64,000 bases of DNA. Source: Thauera phenylacetica B4P (lineage in GTDB: Bacteria; Pseudomonadota; Gammaproteobacteria; Burkholderiales; Rhodocyclaceae). The notes under the pieces were generated by a model that was given only the letters and a program-made list of their open reading frames with translations, was not told the origin of the DNA and did no database searches. Shown one piece after another: positions 6,657 through 14,461 of the stretch. The stretch lies in the NCBI RefSeq assembly GCF_000310225.1, contig NZ_AMXF01000001.1, forward strand, positions 1 through 64,000. Direction: 5' to 3'. The position numbers and the translations under genes were made by a program. Numbering within the stretch: the stretch's first letter is position 1; each line of letters opens with the position of its first letter.

Positions 6657-7430
6657 TCACGCGCCCAGCGCAAGCTCCAGCACCACCGGCGCGTGGTCCG
6701 ACGGCCGCTCCAGGCGGCGCGGCGCCTTGTCCACGCTGCAGCTGCGGCAGGCCTCGCGCAGCGCGGGCGACACCAGCAGGTGGTCGATGCGCAGGCCGAA
6801 GTTGCGGCGGAAGGCCATCATGCGGTAGTCCCACCACGAGAACGCGCGCTCGGGCTGCTCGAAGAGGCGGAAGGCGTCGATCAGGCCGAGGGCCTGCAGC
6901 GCGCGGAAGGCGGCGCGCTCGGGCTCGGACACGTGGATCTCGTCCTTCCAGTCGGGGTGGGCGTCGCGGTCTTCCGGCGCGATGTTGAAGTCACCGGCCA
7001 GCACCAGGCGCTCGTGCGTCTTCATCTCCTCGCGCAGCCAGTCGGTCAGCGCGGCGAGCCAGCGCAGCTTGTACTCGAACTTGTCCGAGCCCACCGCCTG
7101 GCCGTTGGGGAAGTAGCCGCACACCACGCGCACGCCAGCGATGGTTGCGGCGATGATGCGCTTCTGCTCGTCCTCGAAGCCGGGGATGTTGCGCACCACG
7201 GTGGCTTCGTCGATCGGCTGCGGGCTCAGGATGGCGACGCCGTTGTAGGTCTTCTGGCCGATGAACACGGCGTGATAGCCGGCCGCCTCTAGTTCGGTGA
7301 CCGGGAAGGCCTTGTCCTCGAGCTTGAGCTCCTGCAGGCAGAGCGCGTCGGGCTTGTTGGCGGCGAGCCAGTCGAGGACGTGGGGCAGGCGGACCTTCAG
7401 GGAGTTGACGTTCCAGGTGGCAAACTTCAT
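6657..7430 (-). CDS. xth: Exodeoxyribonuclease III / AP endonuclease
   Basis: Repairs abasic sites and 3' blocks and degrades double-stranded DNA 3' to 5'. The protein is 257 aa, the normal size. The exonuclease-endonuclease-phosphatase motifs are visible: KFATWNVNSLKVRL, ALCLQELKLED (metal-binding Glu), GYFPNGQAV, LVLAGDFNIAPEDRDAH, and the terminal SDHAPVVLEL with catalytic Asp-His. It is the last recognisable core gene before the accessory region; its start codon at 7430 marks the left limit of the unassigned stretch. Confidence 0.95.
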   Translation of the reverse strand: MKFATWNVNSLKVRLPHVLDWLAANKPDALCLQELKLEDKAFPVTELEAAGYHAVFIGQKTYNGVAILSPQPIDEATVVRNIPGFEDEQKRIIAATIAGVRVVCGYFPNGQAVGSDKFEYKLRWLAALTDWLREEMKTHERLVLAGDFNIAPEDRDAHPDWKDEIHVSEPERAAFRALQALGLIDAFRLFEQPERAFSWWDYRMMAFRRNFGLRIDHLLVSPALREACRSCSVDKAPRRLERPSDHAPVVLELALGA

Positions 7431-7863
7431 ATGTTTCGTAGCCTATTGATTTTGTTCGTGTTTTTTGTGAATCATTGACGTCAATCTGTGCTGGCTACAA
7501 GTCTAGCTACAAATCTTGGGCGAGATGGTGTGACCTGCTGGGACATGATCGCCAAGTCACCTGTTTTGTAGCTGGGTGGCAGCCTATCCGTGATCGGCGC
7601 GGACCCGTGCGCCCTCGTGGACAACTGGAGGTGGGCTCCGCCAGCGGGATGACGGGAGGAACGGGATTCCGTGCTGTGCGTGCTGTTGTGGAGCCGTCCT
7701 TGGTTGCAAGAAACATGTCGCCGCCCAACCGGAACGAAGTCGGCCAGATCGCTCTGCAACGTGTCGACAGCGCGCGCGGGTGTGTGGCACGGGATAGGCT
7801 GGGGCTGGACAATCATCATGTGCTTATGGACCTGAAGCTGCATATTTATCCACGACTCTTTGG
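7431..7863. other. Unassigned boundary stretch between xth and the accessory genes
   Basis: No convincing gene is seen; two open frames of about 130 codons (7475-7867 plus, 7481-7882 minus) overlap on opposite strands, lack ribosome binding sites and match nothing I recognise. The stretch is less GC-rich near xth. It contains a perfect 12-bp palindrome ATTGACGTCAAT at 7474-7485 and two near-identical 11-bp direct repeats GCTACAAGTCT/GCTACAAATCT at 7494-7504 and 7506-7516. It may be remnant DNA at the edge of an insertion. Confidence 0.5.
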
Positions 7864-8076
7864 ATGATGCAACGTGCGGCAACCAAGGCCGGAATTAAGG
7901 AACTGCCTGAGGCGATGCCGGGTGCTCACGAGTGGCAGTTGTGGACCTACAGCCCGGCCCTGATTCCAGACCAGGCGACGGTGGATCCGTTGTCGTTGAT
8001 CCTCAGCATGCGGGACATTTTGGATGATCGCGTCCAGATCGCGTTGGGCGAAATGAAGGGGCAACTTCCATGGTGA
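7864..8076 (+). CDS. Hypothetical protein, possibly the C-terminal remnant of an accessory DNA-binding/antitoxin-like protein
   Basis: 70 codons from ATG at 7864; the frame is open back only to a stop at 7795, so any longer ancestor is interrupted. The segment ATVDPLSLILSMRDILDDRV resembles, from memory only, C-terminal parts of longer accessory proteins that partner AbiEii-type nucleotidyltransferases. The resemblance and the lack of an N-terminal domain suggest a remnant. No nucleotidyltransferase follows; instead a hipB-like gene begins about 110 bp downstream. Function not assigned. Confidence 0.35.
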   Translation: MMQRAATKAGIKELPEAMPGAHEWQLWTYSPALIPDQATVDPLSLILSMRDILDDRVQIALGEMKGQLPW

Positions 8077-8187
8077 GTAGCCTGAGGTGGCTTGACGGAC
8101 ACTCATCGCAGTCGGTCGCTCGAGATTTTGTGTCCCGAGGGCTACATTATTGGCCTTGTGAGGTTAATTTGATGCTTGGGGGCTACA

Positions 8188-8451
8188 GTGACGACGCTGT
8201 CCGATGTTGCCGGAATGCTCAGAGGTGCTCGCCGAGAAGCGGGGCTGAGCCAAGATGAACTTGCCCAGCGGGCGGGCGTCGCGCGTACGACCGTGGCGCG
8301 GATGGAAAACCTGGCCAACGGTGACATGAGCGTGTCCGCGCTGGTGAGCTTGCTCGAAGCCGCCGGCTACGACCTGAAGCTGGTGAAGGCTGGACACGCG
8401 CGCACGGTCGAGGACATCCTCGCCGAGCAGCGTCGAGGTGATTCTGCATGA
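8188..8451 (+). CDS. hipB: HipB-like helix-turn-helix antitoxin/regulator
   Basis: Small Xre-type DNA-binding protein of 87 aa when started at the GTG at 8188, which has GGGGG about 7 bp upstream; a TTG at 8176 would add four residues. The helix-turn-helix is plain: ARREAGLSQDELAQRAGVAR followed by TTVARMENLANG. The C terminus carries a charged tail (ILAEQRRGDSA). The stop overlaps the next ATG (ATGA at 8448), the usual hipBA coupling, so it should have served as antitoxin and operon autorepressor for the adjoining HipA-like kinase. It is intact although the kinase gene is not. Confidence 0.82.
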   Translation: MTTLSDVAGMLRGARREAGLSQDELAQRAGVARTTVARMENLANGDMSVSALVSLLEAAGYDLKLVKAGHARTVEDILAEQRRGDSA

Positions 8452-9804
8452 AGCTCGATGTTCAGGTTAGCGGCAAGACCGTCGCTCAACTCTATCGTGA
8501 GCGTGACGAGTACGTCCTGAAGTATCTGCCTGACGCCGATCCGGCCGATTTCGTCAGCCTGACCATGCCGGTGCGTGATGAACCATGGCGCTGGCAGCGT
8601 GATCTGCACCCGTTCTTCCGCCAGAACTTGCCCGAGGGCTATCTGCTGAACATCATTCGCGAGGAGTTCGGGCCACTGCTCGATGGCACAGATCTGTCCC
8701 TGCTGGCAGTTGTCGGGGGCAGCGGCATCGGTGGTGTCGCGGTCACGCCCGAGGGGGGCAAGCCCGGCGTGGACATGGCGCCCCTGCAGATCGAGAGCCT
8801 GCTGACGGCCGAGAACACCGCCGGGCATTTCGCAGTGCTGGTGCGCCGCTATGCCCGCGCATCGATTTCGGGCGTGGTGCCCATTCATCGCGCCGGAAGA
8901 AACGCACGACGAGCCACTGGGACCGCTGGGACCGCTGGGCAAGCCCGCGCTACGCACCAGTCGCCACATCATCAAGGGCTCGGACGACAGCACGCCTTAC
9001 CTCGGCTTCAACGTGTTCTACAGCATGCGGGTGCTGGAGCGCCTGAATGTCGTGCCGGTGGTCCGAACCCGCATGTCCGAGGATCGCCGGGTGCTGGTGG
9101 CCGAACGCTTCGACGTGGACGAGCATGGCACGCCGACGCACGGACTCGAAGATGCCTGCGGGCTGCTCGGCCTGCCGCCCCACGAAAAATACGCGACCAC
9201 CACAGAGAAGGTGCTGAACGCCACGCGCGCCTACCTGCCGTCCGCCCAGCTACGTGTTCAGTTGGAGCAATTCGGCTGGCATGTGTTGACCAACTATGTG
9301 GTGCGCAACGCGGATTGCCACGCCAAGAGCATTGCTCTGCCCTACACCCGGCTCGGCGACGTGGGTTTCACGCCGGTCTACGACATCGTGACGACCCAGG
9401 CTTACCCGCGCTACGCGAACAACCCGCCGGGGCTGTCCATCGATGGCTGTCAGACCTGGGCGGCGGGCAAGGCGCTGCAGCGCTTCTTCAATGCGCGGCT
9501 CGGCATCGCGCCACGGCACTACGCTGAGATGGTCGAGCGCTTGTGCGGATCGGCGGTTCAGATCGGCGAGGAAGTGATCGAAGCGGCCAGGAACGAGCCG
9601 CGCTGGCGTCCGGTTGCCAAGCAGATGGTGCATGCGTGGAATGAAGGCATGACATCGCTACGGGACCCGAAGAAATCCGTAGCGCTCCGAGGCCTGGATA
9701 CCGCGATTGCTGCGGACGGCTTCTCCGACCCAGAGCCACCCGAGCAGCTCCGCGTGACGATAGGCCACTCCGAACCGCTGGCACCGCCACGGCGGAGACG
9801 CTGA
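8448..9804 (+). pseudogene. hipA: HipA-like serine/threonine kinase, frameshifted
   Basis: The first frame (8448 to about 8882) encodes the HipA N-terminal subdomain and reaches ARASISGVVP. The continuation of the family (FIAPEETHDE..., kinase core, NADCHAKS active-site loop, VYDIVTTQAYP, C terminus to 9804) is in the next frame. The break falls exactly in the motif that reads SGVQPK in this family; the DNA GTGGTGCCCATTCATC looks like GTGCAGCCCAAGTTCATC minus two bases. The P-loop lysine that binds ATP is therefore lost even if the frame were restored. The catalytic segment is otherwise well kept, so the lesion looks recent. A sequencing error is the alternative. Confidence 0.8.
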
Positions 9805-9845
9805 TTTTGCGGAAACTCCCATCACTTCAGATTGGTCCAGCCAAC

Positions 9846-10508
9846 ATGACAGAAAAAAGCATCGAGGTCTTCCAAGACCTGCATTTGAAAGGCCGCGTAT
9901 CGGCAAGCTCCATCCGAGCCGGCATCCTGGCCCAGGTTCAGGAACCCTGGCACCACGATCAGGAGCGGGAAGAAGACATCCGGGGTCACGCAAGCGATGG
10001 CGAGGACGTGATCGTTCTCGTGCGAGATGCATTCGATGATGTTGACGAATCCGGCCTGGTGCTCTGGCAGGAGGGAGAAGGCTACAAAGTCTCCAACATT
10101 GTTCCCCGCAATGTCGGTGAACTTGGCATCACCAAGTACAACATCATCCTGCGAGACTTCGTCGCCAGGATTGCAGCGCCTGCCGCCAGCGTCAGCGGCT
10201 TCGATGTTGAACTGACTTCTCCCCATCAATCACTGGATGATTGGCTCGACGCAGAACCCGCGGCAGCATTGCGGCGTTTTTCGCGCTTGGCCAACAAGTC
10301 CACAGGTGCCGCGCATCCCATGGACAGGGAGCGGTGGTATGCCTTCCTGATCGCGACACACCACACATCGAAGCGCCTGGATACCGATCAACTCGTACGC
10401 TGGCTCGTCGAGGTGGAACATTGGTCCGAAGACAAAGCCCACGAATTGGCGATCGATTATGAATTCGGCCTCGGTCTTCTTGAGCAATATGAGCAGTCGC
10501 GCTCATGA
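9846..10508 (+). CDS. Unknown protein coupled to a PIN nuclease (putative antitoxin or partner)
   Basis: 220 aa from ATG 9846; a TTG at 9807 preceded by GGAG would add 13 residues and follows the hipA stop almost directly. I do not recognise the family. The N-terminal half is acidic with alternating hydrophobics (EDVIVLVRDAFDDVDESGLV, then GYKVSNIVPRNVGELG); the C-terminal half is helical (SLDDWLDAEPAAALRRFSRL, then DRERWYAFLIATHHTSK). No signal peptide or membrane segment is present. Its stop overlaps the ATG of the PIN gene (ATGA at 10505), so the two are made together. The position beside hipBA suggests a stability or defence role; which member would be the antidote is inference. Confidence 0.6.
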   Translation: MTEKSIEVFQDLHLKGRVSASSIRAGILAQVQEPWHHDQEREEDIRGHASDGEDVIVLVRDAFDDVDESGLVLWQEGEGYKVSNIVPRNVGELGITKYNIILRDFVARIAAPAASVSGFDVELTSPHQSLDDWLDAEPAAALRRFSRLANKSTGAAHPMDRERWYAFLIATHHTSKRLDTDQLVRWLVEVEHWSEDKAHELAIDYEFGLGLLEQYEQSRS

Positions 10509-11209
10509 GCTTGAGTTCGCAGCAGGTTTCCCGCCTGGTGGGGCTGGGTTCGCCGGTGCTGTGCGTCGACACATGCACCGTGCTTGATGTGGTTCGCGAC
10601 ATCACGCGCGAGACCGCCACGACCGGCGATGTCAATGCCGGACTTGCCTTGCTCTCGATGGCCGAAGCGGGTTCCGGCCTGATCGTCCTCATGGCGGAGC
10701 AGGTCACCCTGGAGATCGCAAGCAACGTCGCGAGCGTGGAACAAGAGGCGCAAGCCGCCTTGCAGAAATTCCTGGCCCAGGCCCAGCGCATACACGATGT
10801 AGCCAAGGCCTTTGGTGCCCAAGGAAATATTCAGGTTCACCATCTCGACGGACATGTCAGCCGCGCCAAGCCGGTACTCGATCGTTGGAAGCAGGTCGCC
10901 AAAGTGGTGCCGCACAACGACGGCGTTGCCAGTCGAGCGTTCAGGCGCGTCAACGAGCCTCGTACCCCTGCTCGGCGCGGCAAGGAGTCGATGAAGGACT
11001 GCGTGATCGTCGAGGCCTACATCGAAGCCACGAGCCAGTTGCGTGCTGCCGGACTGACAGCGCCCATCGTCTTTGCGTCGTCGAATACCAAGGAGTACTT
11101 TGCCCCGAACACCAGACATCTCCAAAACGACATCGCTGGTGATCTTGCGGCGGTGGGCATGGAGTACGCCCCAAACTTCGGGGCCGCGAAGCACAGCCTT
11201 GGCCTGTAG
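10505..11209 (+). CDS. PIN-domain ribonuclease-like protein
   Basis: 234 aa. The N terminus has a beta strand ending in acidic residues typical of PIN nucleases (VLCVDTCTVLDVV, Asp22 and Asp28). Midway sits a conserved-looking KESMKDCVIVEAYIEA (Asp165, Glu170), and near the end FASSNTKEYF (Ser193, Asn194), which matches the final metal-site strand in the larger PIN-like/DUF4935-type proteins. At 234 aa it is longer than VapC toxins (about 130 aa), so this is not a simple VapBC pair. It overlaps the upstream unknown gene by 4 bp. Likely a Mg-dependent RNase acting on tRNA or mRNA; target unknown. Confidence 0.65.
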   Translation: MSLSSQQVSRLVGLGSPVLCVDTCTVLDVVRDITRETATTGDVNAGLALLSMAEAGSGLIVLMAEQVTLEIASNVASVEQEAQAALQKFLAQAQRIHDVAKAFGAQGNIQVHHLDGHVSRAKPVLDRWKQVAKVVPHNDGVASRAFRRVNEPRTPARRGKESMKDCVIVEAYIEATSQLRAAGLTAPIVFASSNTKEYFAPNTRHLQNDIAGDLAAVGMEYAPNFGAAKHSLGL

Positions 11210-11345
11210 TCGCAAGCACGGCAAATTTGGTGGAGTGGTTTGTCGGTCACGTACGTACTTTGCGCTTGGATATTGGCCCGCAGCGATAGCGCCGCACTTG
11301 CAAACTGATCGACCCTGGATAAGCTGGGGTCAGGAGGTGGTGAGC

Positions 11346-11597
11346 ATGCGAAAGTTCTTTTTCTTCTTGATTCTGGTGCTTGGTGCAGGGGGAGGGCTCT
11401 TTGTGGCTTCCCACGAAAGCTGGGCTACCAAGGTGGGAATGATGACACTGGGGATGATGTTTACCGCTCCTTTTGGAGCAGCATTGACCGGTGTGGGACG
11501 TGGTCACAGGCGATCTCGAAGCGATCGGATCCGTGGAGCCAGCAGTCCTGGTTCTTTGTTCAAGGGCGATGTGCCAATCCGGCGGTGGGATCGATAG
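11346..11597 (+). CDS. Small membrane protein of unknown function
   Basis: 83 aa from ATG 11346, with AGGAGG 10 bp upstream, the best ribosome binding site in this part of the window. Two hydrophobic segments are visible (FFFFLILVLGAGGGLFVAS and MMTLGMMFTAPFGAALTGV), followed by a basic tail (GRGHRRSRSDRIRG). It converges on traG, whose stop is 87 bp away. Small two-helix membrane proteins of this kind often border conjugative regions, but I cannot name this one. Confidence 0.6.
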   Translation: MRKFFFFLILVLGAGGGLFVASHESWATKVGMMTLGMMFTAPFGAALTGVGRGHRRSRSDRIRGASSPGSLFKGDVPIRRWDR

Positions 11598-11683
11598 CGG
11601 GAGTGTCCGAATTTCTGTGTTCGAGGCGGATTGTTGAATTCGTCTTTGCGTGATGTTCATTGAACAGATAGCCGCTTTTCGGG

Positions 11684-14461
11684 TTACTTGCGATCCAGCA
11701 AGTCTTTGACTTTGTCTCCGAGGTTGTCAGCCGTTGCAGAAGCATCGCTGCCTACTTGCCTCATCGACTGTAGAACCAAGGACTTTCTTGATTTCAACGT
11801 CCCATCCTCTGTCTTGACGACCTCCGCCTTGTTGTCGAACTCGCCACTCTTGGCTGCAGTCGTGCCCTGAATCTCGCTGGCTCGCTGCTGAACCTCTCGG
11901 CGAATCGGTGAGGGTGGATAGGCGGGGCGGTCAAGCGGACGGCTGGGGTTGCTGCCGAAGCGCGACGTCGCCCCGTTTTGGGCGCGATGGACGTTCTGGA
12001 TATCTGGCGAGAGGGCTGCTTCACTCCGCTGCTGCCGATGAAGCTCACGAATACCCTCGAAAGAAGCGGGTAGGCTGCTTCCATCCGACAGAACGCGGGT
12101 GGGCCCCAGCGACTGCCGGGCGAGTTCCGCCGACATCAAGGTGTGGGCTGCGGCACTGTTGCCACCGTACGTTTGGGCGTAGCGCAGGAACATCTCCATG
12201 TTGTACGGGTCCTGGGCAATGTCGATCGAAATCGCCTCACCCTTGGAGTAGGCGGTTGATGCCTGGTTGGCGAAACTGACTCGATCGGAAAGCGTTGCAT
12301 CTGCCCTTTCCGAACGGGCCTGCGTTGTGCTGAGGCGGGATGACATTTCCCGTGCCTCGCTCGCATCGTTCGAGACCGCCTGCAGGAAGCTGGTGTCTCT
12401 GGAGACGCGGTCGCCGAACTGTTTGAATGCCACCAGTTGGTCTCCAGTCAGGCTGGCCAAGGCCTTCTGATCCTGCGCCGAGAGGCTCGATTGGTACGAC
12501 TTGTCACCGCTGGACTGGAACTTCCCTCCGATGAACTTGGCGTCGGCGCCGACATGTGCCGCAGCACCGAATGCCAGACGTGCCACCTGAGCCTGGCTGA
12601 GCCCGGTGCTCTGCGAGACGGTCTGGACGATCTGGTCCAGCTTGTTCAGTGTTTCCCCCATCTGCTCGAAGCTGCCAGAACTGGTACCGGCGCTGTTGCG
12701 CGTGGAGCGCAGCTTGCTGAGTCCCCGCGAGAACACCTCCGACAGCGCGGCAGACCGTTCTGTAGTGGCGGCCACAGCTTCACCTCGTGCAGCATCGACC
12801 TGTCGGCTGGCTTGCTCAACATCCTGCTCCGACACCCGCATCGACACGACTCGGGAAGCGAATCCCTGGTTGCGCAGCAGACTCACCGCTGTACGTCCGG
12901 TCAGCGCGTTCGACGAGAACGTATCCCCCGAGAGATCGTTCTGCCAACTGCTCATGAAGGCCGAAGTGCGGTTGGGCGCCAGCCGCATCTGGTCCATGGA
13001 GACGTTGCCCAGGCTGGTATTGCCCAGGGCCGCAGACCCCGTCGAGGAGCCCAGCAACGCCTGCAGCCCAGAGAGTCCGCCCACCATGGCGGTCCCGAAG
13101 TTCTCCATGCGCTTCAAGGCTGCCCAGGCGATGAAGGGGATGCTGATCGCCAGGTAGCCGACGATCGCTTCACCGGAGATCGCACGGGAGTAGATGCTGG
13201 ACGCGGTCTGCAGCGTCAGCATCTTCGTTCCTGTGCCGAGATCGGCGGCCGAGGCGATGTCGTAGGCCGCGTAAATCGAGGCCATGTAGTTCAGCACAGC
13301 ATAGAGCGGCGGCCAGAGCTGGATCCAGATCAGGATGGCAGCGTAGCCCTTGAAAGCCATCAGGCTCTCCCGCCCGCTGGTGAGCAGGAGCAGCAGCACG
13401 AAGAGCGGAAAGAGGGCGTAGGTCACCGCCTCGATCACGTTGCGGAACACAGGCAAGGCTTGCTCGGCGGTCTTGCCCGCATTGATCCAGGCGGCGTTCT
13501 GCTGGGCAACGCCTTGGGCGCGGCCGACGGCGAGCACCATGGCGGCCGGGTCGTTCACCTTCTGCCCGACGATCTGGCCGGTGTCGGCGATGGCGTTCAG
13601 CACGGCGTTCTGGCGGATCAGATCCGCCGCGGTGGCTGAGGCCGAGGCGATGTTGTTCTTGATGTAGGCCTGCTGGATCTGGCCGGCGATCACGCTGGCG
13701 GCGGCTGTGCCGGGCAGCGTGGGGTTCAGCCGGAAGGCGAGTTGTCCCTGGATGCGGCTGATCTGGGCGGGAATCCGGGCGCTCAGATTGACGTAGGCGT
13801 TGGGGCAGGTGTCGACCGTCGTGCCGGTCGTGTTGGTGAGCGGGGTGAAGCGTGCCGGGTTGGGCGTGGACATCAGGGCCCAGACGTCGTCCGAAGTAGA
13901 GAATGCTGCCGGCGAGATCGTTCCGTCGAGGAGGTCGTAGGTCGTGCAGTTGTGGATGAAGTTGATCAGGTCCGTGCGAAAGTTCGGATCCTGGAAGACC
14001 ACGCCGCCGGTTTCCCGGATCAGACGGTTGCCGAACATCAGGCCGTTCTGTTCGTAGCGAAGCTCGCTGGGCAGGGCGCCGGGGCCGGGGATGACCTGAA
14101 AAGCCGTCTCGAACAAGCCGGTCAGTGTGTGACCGATGGTGCTGGTGAGACTGCCGAGCACGGCCGCGCCGAAGGGGACGTTGTCGACGACCTGCACTGG
14201 CGTGCCGCCGGTCTTGTCGACGATGCCGACCGTGACCTTGGGGACGATCAGGATCGAGAAGACCAGAACGACCGTCCCCAGCCACTTCCAGCCCTGGAGC
14301 TTCTCGGGAGCGAATGCATAGGCGATGAAGGCGGCGACGAAGCCACAGAATGCCACAGCGGCGACCGCGGAGGCATAGTCGCCGGAGGCATGGATGGCGG
14401 CCGCGGCGTTGAAGACCCCGAACAGGCTGGCCGCGTTCTGGTACGCATAGATTTCCCACAT
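11684..14461 (-). CDS. traG: Conjugal transfer mating-pair stabilisation protein TraG
   Basis: 925-aa inner-membrane protein with a periplasmic C-terminal domain, needed for pilus assembly and mating-pair stabilisation in F-type systems. It opens MWEIYAYQNAASLFGVFNAA with several transmembrane helices in the first about 110 residues, a large periplasmic loop, more helices around residues 340-460 (ALFPLFVLLLLL, then SIPFIAWAALKRMENFG), and a long Ser/Gln/Ala-rich, coiled-coil-like tail. The length matches F TraG (about 938 aa). It is the last gene of the minus-strand transfer operon, 26 bp after traH. Confidence 0.93.
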   Translation of the reverse strand: MWEIYAYQNAASLFGVFNAAAAIHASGDYASAVAAVAFCGFVAAFIAYAFAPEKLQGWKWLGTVVLVFSILIVPKVTVGIVDKTGGTPVQVVDNVPFGAAVLGSLTSTIGHTLTGLFETAFQVIPGPGALPSELRYEQNGLMFGNRLIRETGGVVFQDPNFRTDLINFIHNCTTYDLLDGTISPAAFSTSDDVWALMSTPNPARFTPLTNTTGTTVDTCPNAYVNLSARIPAQISRIQGQLAFRLNPTLPGTAAASVIAGQIQQAYIKNNIASASATAADLIRQNAVLNAIADTGQIVGQKVNDPAAMVLAVGRAQGVAQQNAAWINAGKTAEQALPVFRNVIEAVTYALFPLFVLLLLLTSGRESLMAFKGYAAILIWIQLWPPLYAVLNYMASIYAAYDIASAADLGTGTKMLTLQTASSIYSRAISGEAIVGYLAISIPFIAWAALKRMENFGTAMVGGLSGLQALLGSSTGSAALGNTSLGNVSMDQMRLAPNRTSAFMSSWQNDLSGDTFSSNALTGRTAVSLLRNQGFASRVVSMRVSEQDVEQASRQVDAARGEAVAATTERSAALSEVFSRGLSKLRSTRNSAGTSSGSFEQMGETLNKLDQIVQTVSQSTGLSQAQVARLAFGAAAHVGADAKFIGGKFQSSGDKSYQSSLSAQDQKALASLTGDQLVAFKQFGDRVSRDTSFLQAVSNDASEAREMSSRLSTTQARSERADATLSDRVSFANQASTAYSKGEAISIDIAQDPYNMEMFLRYAQTYGGNSAAAHTLMSAELARQSLGPTRVLSDGSSLPASFEGIRELHRQQRSEAALSPDIQNVHRAQNGATSRFGSNPSRPLDRPAYPPSPIRREVQQRASEIQGTTAAKSGEFDNKAEVVKTEDGTLKSRKSLVLQSMRQVGSDASATADNLGDKVKDLLDRK

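Follow-up and report, generated by a model that had tools for sequence, protein, structure and literature searches.

A PIN_12-type nuclease gene and its unnamed overlapping partner on bacterial mobile elements: a putative type II toxin-antitoxin-like module

PIN-domain toxins are among the commonest bacterial toxins, and the partners known for them come from few, mostly DNA-binding, antitoxin families; many antitoxins act through a short flexible neutralising tail. The gene pair described here consists of a PIN-domain gene (PIN) and an upstream partner gene (UP). It resembles VapBC in the PIN fold and acidic active site, in the upstream and overlapping position of the partner gene and in its carriage on mobile elements. 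It departs from VapBC in that PIN encodes 234 aa with a helical insertion instead of a small toxin of about 130 aa, and in that UP has 220 aa and contains none of the RHH, AbrB and Phd antitoxin domains according to Pfam. The passages of PMC7157771 considered here place toxin-antitoxin (TA) pairs of Tn3-family transposons mostly directly upstream of the resolvase gene. In Table 1 of that source the sole tnpS/tnpT case is TnHdN1, which carries VapB and PIN_3 in the order <tnpT tnpS> A> T> tnpA>. Five toxin and six antitoxin families are listed there as Tn3 passengers, with neither PIN_12 nor UP among them in these passages. DS-5 of DefensePredictor, as described in passages of PMC13092281, is like UP-PIN in combining a PIN nuclease with one partner protein, defends against phage and apparently is not a TA system; deletion of its partner, which has DUF5830 and an AcrIF4-like domain, abolished defence and released no toxicity. 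A Pfam search at E ≤ 10 detected DUF5830 in none of 17 UP proteins, a comparison made by the domain description in these passages. The UP-PIN pair was unnamed in the literature searched (titles, abstract openings and passages, mostly open-access and excluding preprints; the accessible text of PMC6722718 mentions DUF4935). Judged by these libraries and this literature, the PIN family is known, and UP as a whole and its pairing with PIN appear to be new.

In the window, by which we mean the whole stretch of 64,000 nucleotides of Thauera phenylacetica B4P that was analysed, UP lies at 9846..10508 on the plus strand and encodes an acidic protein (pI 4.91) from an ATG start, with an alternative TTG start at 9807 that would give 233 aa. 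PIN follows at 10505..11209 on the same strand, and the two genes share the 4-bp start/stop overlap ATGA (10505..10508), so that both the ORF coordinates and the overlap proposed in an earlier sequence-only reading of this DNA were recovered. Of 18 pairs whose junction was measured, 15 overlap by precisely 4 bp and the remaining three have values of +6, +5 and -26. Both genes are under purifying selection, with dN/dS of 0.06-0.20 for UP (window against 10 relatives) and 0.07-0.14 for PIN (against 9 relatives), rough values as several dS exceeded 1; these low ratios indicate that UP and PIN are real protein genes. A promoter scan of 7900-11700 detected 0 sigma-70-like sites against 1.0 expected, and 3 terminator-like sites against 3.2 expected were found in the same interval. 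No tRNA genes were found within the 64-kb window. Just 3' of PIN, at 11346-11597, lies an ORF of 83 aa whose N-terminus is hydrophobic and for which Pfam gave no convincing match.

PIN was assigned to PIN_12 (PF16289) over residues 20-198 with an E value of 1.5e-7 and 32.4 bits, just over the Pfam gathering cut-off of 32. The three motifs that had been pointed out from the sequence, CVDTCTVLD, KDCVIVE and ASSNTKEYF, were all found. Across 14 PIN proteins (alignment A6, identity down to 23%) D22, E70, D165 and N194 are invariant; the codons of the predicted catalytic residues Asp22, Glu70 and Asp165 lie at 10568..10570, 10712..10714 and 10997..10999, and that of Asn194, the fourth active-site position within the SSN motif, at 11084..11086, all on the plus strand. 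A structure model of fair quality (pLDDT 77.7 from 12 sequences) was compared with known structures, and PIN structures topped the list, the best VapC giving Z 11.3 and an rmsd of 3.3 over 131 residues. PIN therefore combines the acidic active site with the PIN fold, as expected of PIN_12. At 234 aa it is indeed about twice the size of VapC, whose chains among the structure matches have about 127-145 aa, and in the model helical additions appear to account for the difference.

PIN_12 proteins are mostly found in genomes without UP. At E ≤ 0.001 they were detected in 14 of 200 genomes, of which 13 had no UP match and only one (G006) also contained UP, in a family search that is not fully sensitive because it missed the PIN of the window itself. 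Next to three PIN_12 genes examined from genomes lacking UP, no UP-like ORF was present. One PIN_12 gene of another type (L062, 1459-2265) was seen between ORFs that by eye resemble HsdS and HsdR of type I restriction.

UP as a whole fits no recognised family in the libraries searched, as had been claimed: Pfam, NCBIfam and PADLOC gave no match at E ≤ 1, and comparison with PHROGs gave chance-level matches only. Pfam likewise recognised none of the usual DNA-binding domains (RHH, AbrB, Phd, HTH) in the UP of the window (E ≤ 1) or in 17 UP proteins (E ≤ 10); these searches leave room for a diverged or new type of DNA-binding domain. An AlphaFold2 model (pLDDT 92.5 from 16 sequences) predicts two well-folded domains. 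The N-terminal alpha/beta domain (9846..10229, plus strand) has a KA1-like topology in the model, with structure matches over residues 6-127 and the best of them to KA1 domains at Z up to 8.3; since this fold is common, the match says little about the function of UP.

The C-terminal helical domain of UP (10230..10505, plus strand) is DUF1889-like through one intermediate protein and contains a signature, N-K-S-T-G-x-x-H-P-x-D-x-x-R-W, from N150 to W164 (10293..10337). In an alignment of 19 proteins, N150, T153, G154, H157, P158, D160, R163 and W164 are invariant or conserved at 90% or more; K151-S152 is replaced in L046 and L047, and most of the motif is lost in L042. The similarity to DUF1889 was recognised through a single protein (L081, 1131-1451), which a search with the UP profile returned at E 1.3e-6 for one genome, has DUF1889 at E 3.7e-13 and matches PDB 2ES9. 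One-to-one comparison of the UP C-domain with L081 gave a probability of 96 and an E value of 4e-9, and N-x-STGxAHPxDxxR is common to both. DUF1889 (PF08986) had no direct Pfam match in the UP of the window or in 17 UP proteins, and direct comparison of UP with E. coli YoaC, a stand-alone DUF1889 protein, detected no similarity, so that the link rests on this one intermediate. L081 is thus a possible sequence bridge from UP to YoaC, the difference being the N-terminal alpha/beta domain added in UP. The sequence-only reading would have failed had UP belonged to a known family with an unrelated function; what was found is a C-domain that appears related to a domain of unknown function. In addition, structure comparison with BFVD gave A0A345MLQ5, a protein of 115 aa and a possible relative from phage of one of the UP domains (24% identity and rmsd 2.2 over 80 columns, probability 1.00, E 0.034).

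Intact, adjacent UP and PIN genes were found in 21 loci, namely the window and 20 further ones (L001, L002, L005-L009, L011-L015, L017, L042 and L044-L049), so that the pair proved to be conserved elsewhere, though several of these loci are related to one another. The number of independent loci is below 21, because L011, L012 and L045 have 9.5-10 kb in common at 93-96% identity and a single unit is common to L046-L049. The 21 do not include the DUF1889 protein L081, a decayed UP fragment (L055), a remote PIN with no UP adjoining (L075), the decayed copies L050 and L051 (the PIN of L050 being cut by the contig end), L053, which lies on the contig of L007, and the PIN remnant L004; five loci that have UP but no working PIN are not counted either. 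The intact pairs range from Proteobacteria, including Burkholderiales, to Planctomycetota, and the arrangement is kept even in the most diverged pair, a second Singulisphaera copy (L042) in which UP is 20% and PIN 23% identical to the window. Distances among UP and PIN proteins were correlated (Mantel r 0.965, 14 pairs), although the two trees disagree in their deep branching. The pair thus has the organisation of type II TA systems, i.e. two small, adjacent, coupled genes that are kept together, with exceptions in the five loci where UP has no working PIN.

Used as a query against 84,980 species genomes, UP recovered 13 loci, and plasmid searches gave three records with UP and three with PIN. 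Because only part of the candidates was scored, the whole-genome tallies are lower bounds: UP was present in at least 2 of 299 genomes of the phylum sample, 2 of 266 of the class sample (the second being the DUF1889 protein), 2 of 300 of the order sample (the second being a fragment) and 6 of 249 of the family sample, each including the genome of the window, and in at least 1 of 246 genomes of the phylum of Singulisphaera, that Singulisphaera genome itself. No UP was found in the seven listed genomes of the same genus within the family sample. In a reciprocal search of 249 family genomes sampled alike, UP was detected in six and PIN in seven, all six being among the seven; the seventh contains the remote PIN mentioned above (345 aa, L075).

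The pair usually travels on mobile elements, among them conjugative elements, a Tn3-type unit and rhizobial plasmids; a further element has a ParA-like gene, with an integrase in L011. In the window, F-type transfer genes (TraG-, TraH- and TraF-like) begin at 11684 on the strand opposite to the pair. Identity to L006 rises from 77% (6771-7874) to 92% (7876-11327), and this step places the probable border of the F-type conjugative element near 7875, with the pair just inside it; the mobile-element border that had been suggested for the pair is therefore borne out. To the left of 7875, host genes that by eye resemble ksgA, a Crp/Fnr regulator and exonuclease III were observed.

The pair is preceded in the window by hipBA, for which the earlier reading had used the word dead. 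This applies to hipA (8448..9804, plus strand; Couple_hipA and HipA_C), which has a frame-shifting 2-base gap when compared with L006, L007, L009 and L015, four relatives whose 449-aa hipA is intact, and which is frame-shifted in Roseateles L005 as well. It does not apply to hipB (8176..8451, plus strand; HTH_3/HTH_31), which is open, nor to hipA of the four relatives. Although hipBA and the pair occur together in the window and these five loci, DNA shared with the window is limited to the pair in seven others (L008, L010, L011, L012, L013, L014 and L045; matches above 150 bases considered, more distant loci having no DNA match to the window). There the shared DNA starts at 9841-9921 and ends at 11193-11214, or at 10944 in L010 with its broken PIN. 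A special role of hipBA thus found no support; as seven loci share only the pair with the window, the idea that hipBA belongs functionally to the module was rejected, and hipBA is regarded as a neighbour outside it and a fellow passenger.

The Tn3-type unit was analysed in two genomes of one Burkholderiales genus (L047 and L048), where the order is tyrosine recombinase, UP and PIN, followed by a small ORF and a Tn3 transposase gene on the converging strand (Pfam on L047). The two loci have this 6.3-kb block at 95% identity and a separate 1.4-kb stretch in common; L047 and L049 share 13.75 kb including the left flank, and in L046 recombinase, UP and PIN are present with only part of the transposase shared. 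Near the ends of the unit in L047 and L048 no terminal inverted repeats (30 bases, up to 5 mismatches) were found, for which reason it is not regarded as a demonstrated complete transposon. As in TnHdN1 (passages of PMC7157771), the pair follows a tyrosine recombinase, here a putative TnpS, on the same strand and in the order expected for antitoxin and toxin; unlike in TnHdN1, where tnpA is on the same strand, tnpA here converges on the pair. The recombinase has matches in 2,069 plasmid records, and in a Variovorax relative a Tn3-family transposase gene directly follows the recombinase gene with no pair between them. The unit carrying the pair was seen in L046-L051, in genomes G487, G529 and G391; G487 has two intact pairs and fragments of a decayed copy, and G529 has one intact and one decayed copy.

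Mobile settings were varied, and defence genes lie beside some copies in what is an uncontrolled tally. L013 adjoins an AAA ATPase gene and a TniQ-like gene (below the Pfam cut-off), and L014 adjoins an integrase, Vsr and a C5 cytosine methylase. On a Sinorhizobium plasmid, genes with the annotations nucleotidyltransferase, ThiF, Mov34 and SAVED, which we read as CBASS, immediately precede the pair. Beside the pair on a Sinorhizobium plasmid (L001, 11423-18222), one block is annotated as DUF3800, PP2C phosphatase, hypothetical protein and AAA; it is perhaps another defence system.

An intact UP without a working PIN was found in five loci. The PIN gene of L010 has lost its start and contains three in-frame stops, that of L016 is recognisable in its N-terminal half alone, and in L003, L019 and L020 no PIN was found anywhere in the record, the two virus records being possibly fragments. 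A terminase gene is present on L003, a plasmid of the cyanobacterium Fischerella. L019 and L020 are the two UP loci found in viral contigs, the former being refound in a repeat search; in L019 the orphan UP lies upstream of a tail-protein gene, and in L020, which has a terminase gene, an Abi_alpha gene lies directly upstream of the orphan UP (1303-1929 and 2040-2681). As a separate observation, the orphan UP of the viral contig (L019 7788-8441; L082 9001-9654) appears as an extra gene amid apparent tail genes. Viral contigs gave no match with PIN queries or with the Fischerella UP. Among 50,697 phage records there was no UP or PIN match, the UP of L019 had none at E ≤ 0.1, and the UP C-domain matched over just 35 residues (E 9) in a single phage represented by two records. 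Conversely, one PIN remnant without UP was found on a Rhizobium plasmid (L004), and no intact close PIN without UP was met in searches of which the largest was led by UP, so that PIN-only loci would escape it, and those led by PIN were small. For this reason, and because the virus records may be fragments, the asymmetry by which UP outlasts PIN in these sequences is suggestive only. On the L010 branch, dN/dS of UP was about 0.16, against about 0.05 on the L008 branch (arithmetic on distances with L008 and the window). By these sequence estimates the UP of L010 would still be constrained, perhaps in a relaxed manner, and PIN may have been lost only late on that branch.

Taken together, we consider it somewhat probable (roughly 0.58) that the pair is a type II TA-like module of mobile elements in which PIN is an RNase effector and UP its dedicated regulator. 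UP, being upstream, would be translated first, and its amount would be coupled to that of PIN through the 4-bp overlap. It would most likely bind PIN and hold the nuclease inactive; loss of the element, or a phage attack that removes or inactivates UP, could then release PIN, which would cut RNA and stop growth. This proposal is favoured by the conserved pairing in 21 loci, the co-occurrence of UP and PIN in the reciprocal search, the correlated distances of the two proteins, the loci whose shared DNA is limited to the pair, the coupling in 15 of 18 pairs, the conserved active site, the VapC matches of the PIN model, the purifying selection, the mobile settings, the position of UP and then PIN after the recombinase, as in an antitoxin-toxin order, and the five loci with UP and no working PIN. 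Against it stand the absence of a recognised antitoxin domain from UP and its nearly toxin-like size, the general lack of coupling between PIN_12 proteins and UP, the PIN remnant without UP in L004, and DS-5 as a PIN protein with a partner that, in the passages of PMC13092281, is apparently not a TA system.

The main rival is a two-part anti-phage nuclease: UP would then serve as the sensor or activator that activity requires, and PIN alone would be harmless. DS-5 is a precedent, as loss of its partner ends defence without toxicity in the passages of PMC13092281, and the prediction of UP as two well-folded domains, unlike a flexible antitoxin tail, would agree with this reading, as would the CBASS-like genes, Vsr and C5 methylase near pairs and the Abi_alpha gene beside an orphan UP. 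An activator alone would not explain why UP is kept without a working PIN in five loci, however; in the Tn3-type unit the two genes come after the recombinase in the sequence typical of antitoxin and toxin, and Pfam recognised DUF5830 in none of the 17 UP proteins searched. On account of the orphan UPs and the order in the Tn3-type unit, the genomic evidence leans towards a TA module over a DS-5-like defence nuclease, which we consider possible but rather unlikely.

That the pair is mobile cargo which acts neither as a TA nor in defence but in some other RNA-related or regulatory way would agree with the resemblance of the UP C-domain to DUF1889, which also occurs as a stand-alone protein, but the patchy presence and varied mobile settings fit a selfish or defence module better, and such a role seems very improbable. 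Slighter still is the chance that UP, as an RnlA-like RNase or some other enzyme, is the true effector, with PIN as its partner in processing or regulation: RnlA is the top Foldseek match of UP (E 0.011, probability 0.80) and the well-kept signature resembles a functional site, but homology to RnlA was not supported, as profile comparison with a single E. coli RnlA gave a probability of 0.3% and the structure match (Z 5.7) covers the N-domain only, of common fold, and lies below the KA1 domains, and L042 keeps PIN though most of the UP signature is lost. A Pfam RnlA_toxin search of 150 genomes gave no match anywhere, controls included, and is therefore uninformative.

The pair is noteworthy for its unnamed partner family, its wide range of phyla and its presence on several unrelated kinds of mobile element. 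Should UP neutralise PIN, it would represent a new antitoxin family, and if the orphan UPs of viral contigs neutralise as well, they would provide a ready-made counter-defence. More speculatively, UP may found a class of antitoxins built from a DUF1889-type and an alpha/beta domain, with the orphan UPs of phages and phage-like plasmids acting as counter-defence antitoxins that disarm a host PIN; we hold this to be doubtful at present. The pair also makes DUF1889, a domain of unknown function, more accessible to study, and if the proposal were true, stand-alone DUF1889 proteins including E. coli YoaC would for the first time have a function open to testing, namely the regulation of PIN nucleases.
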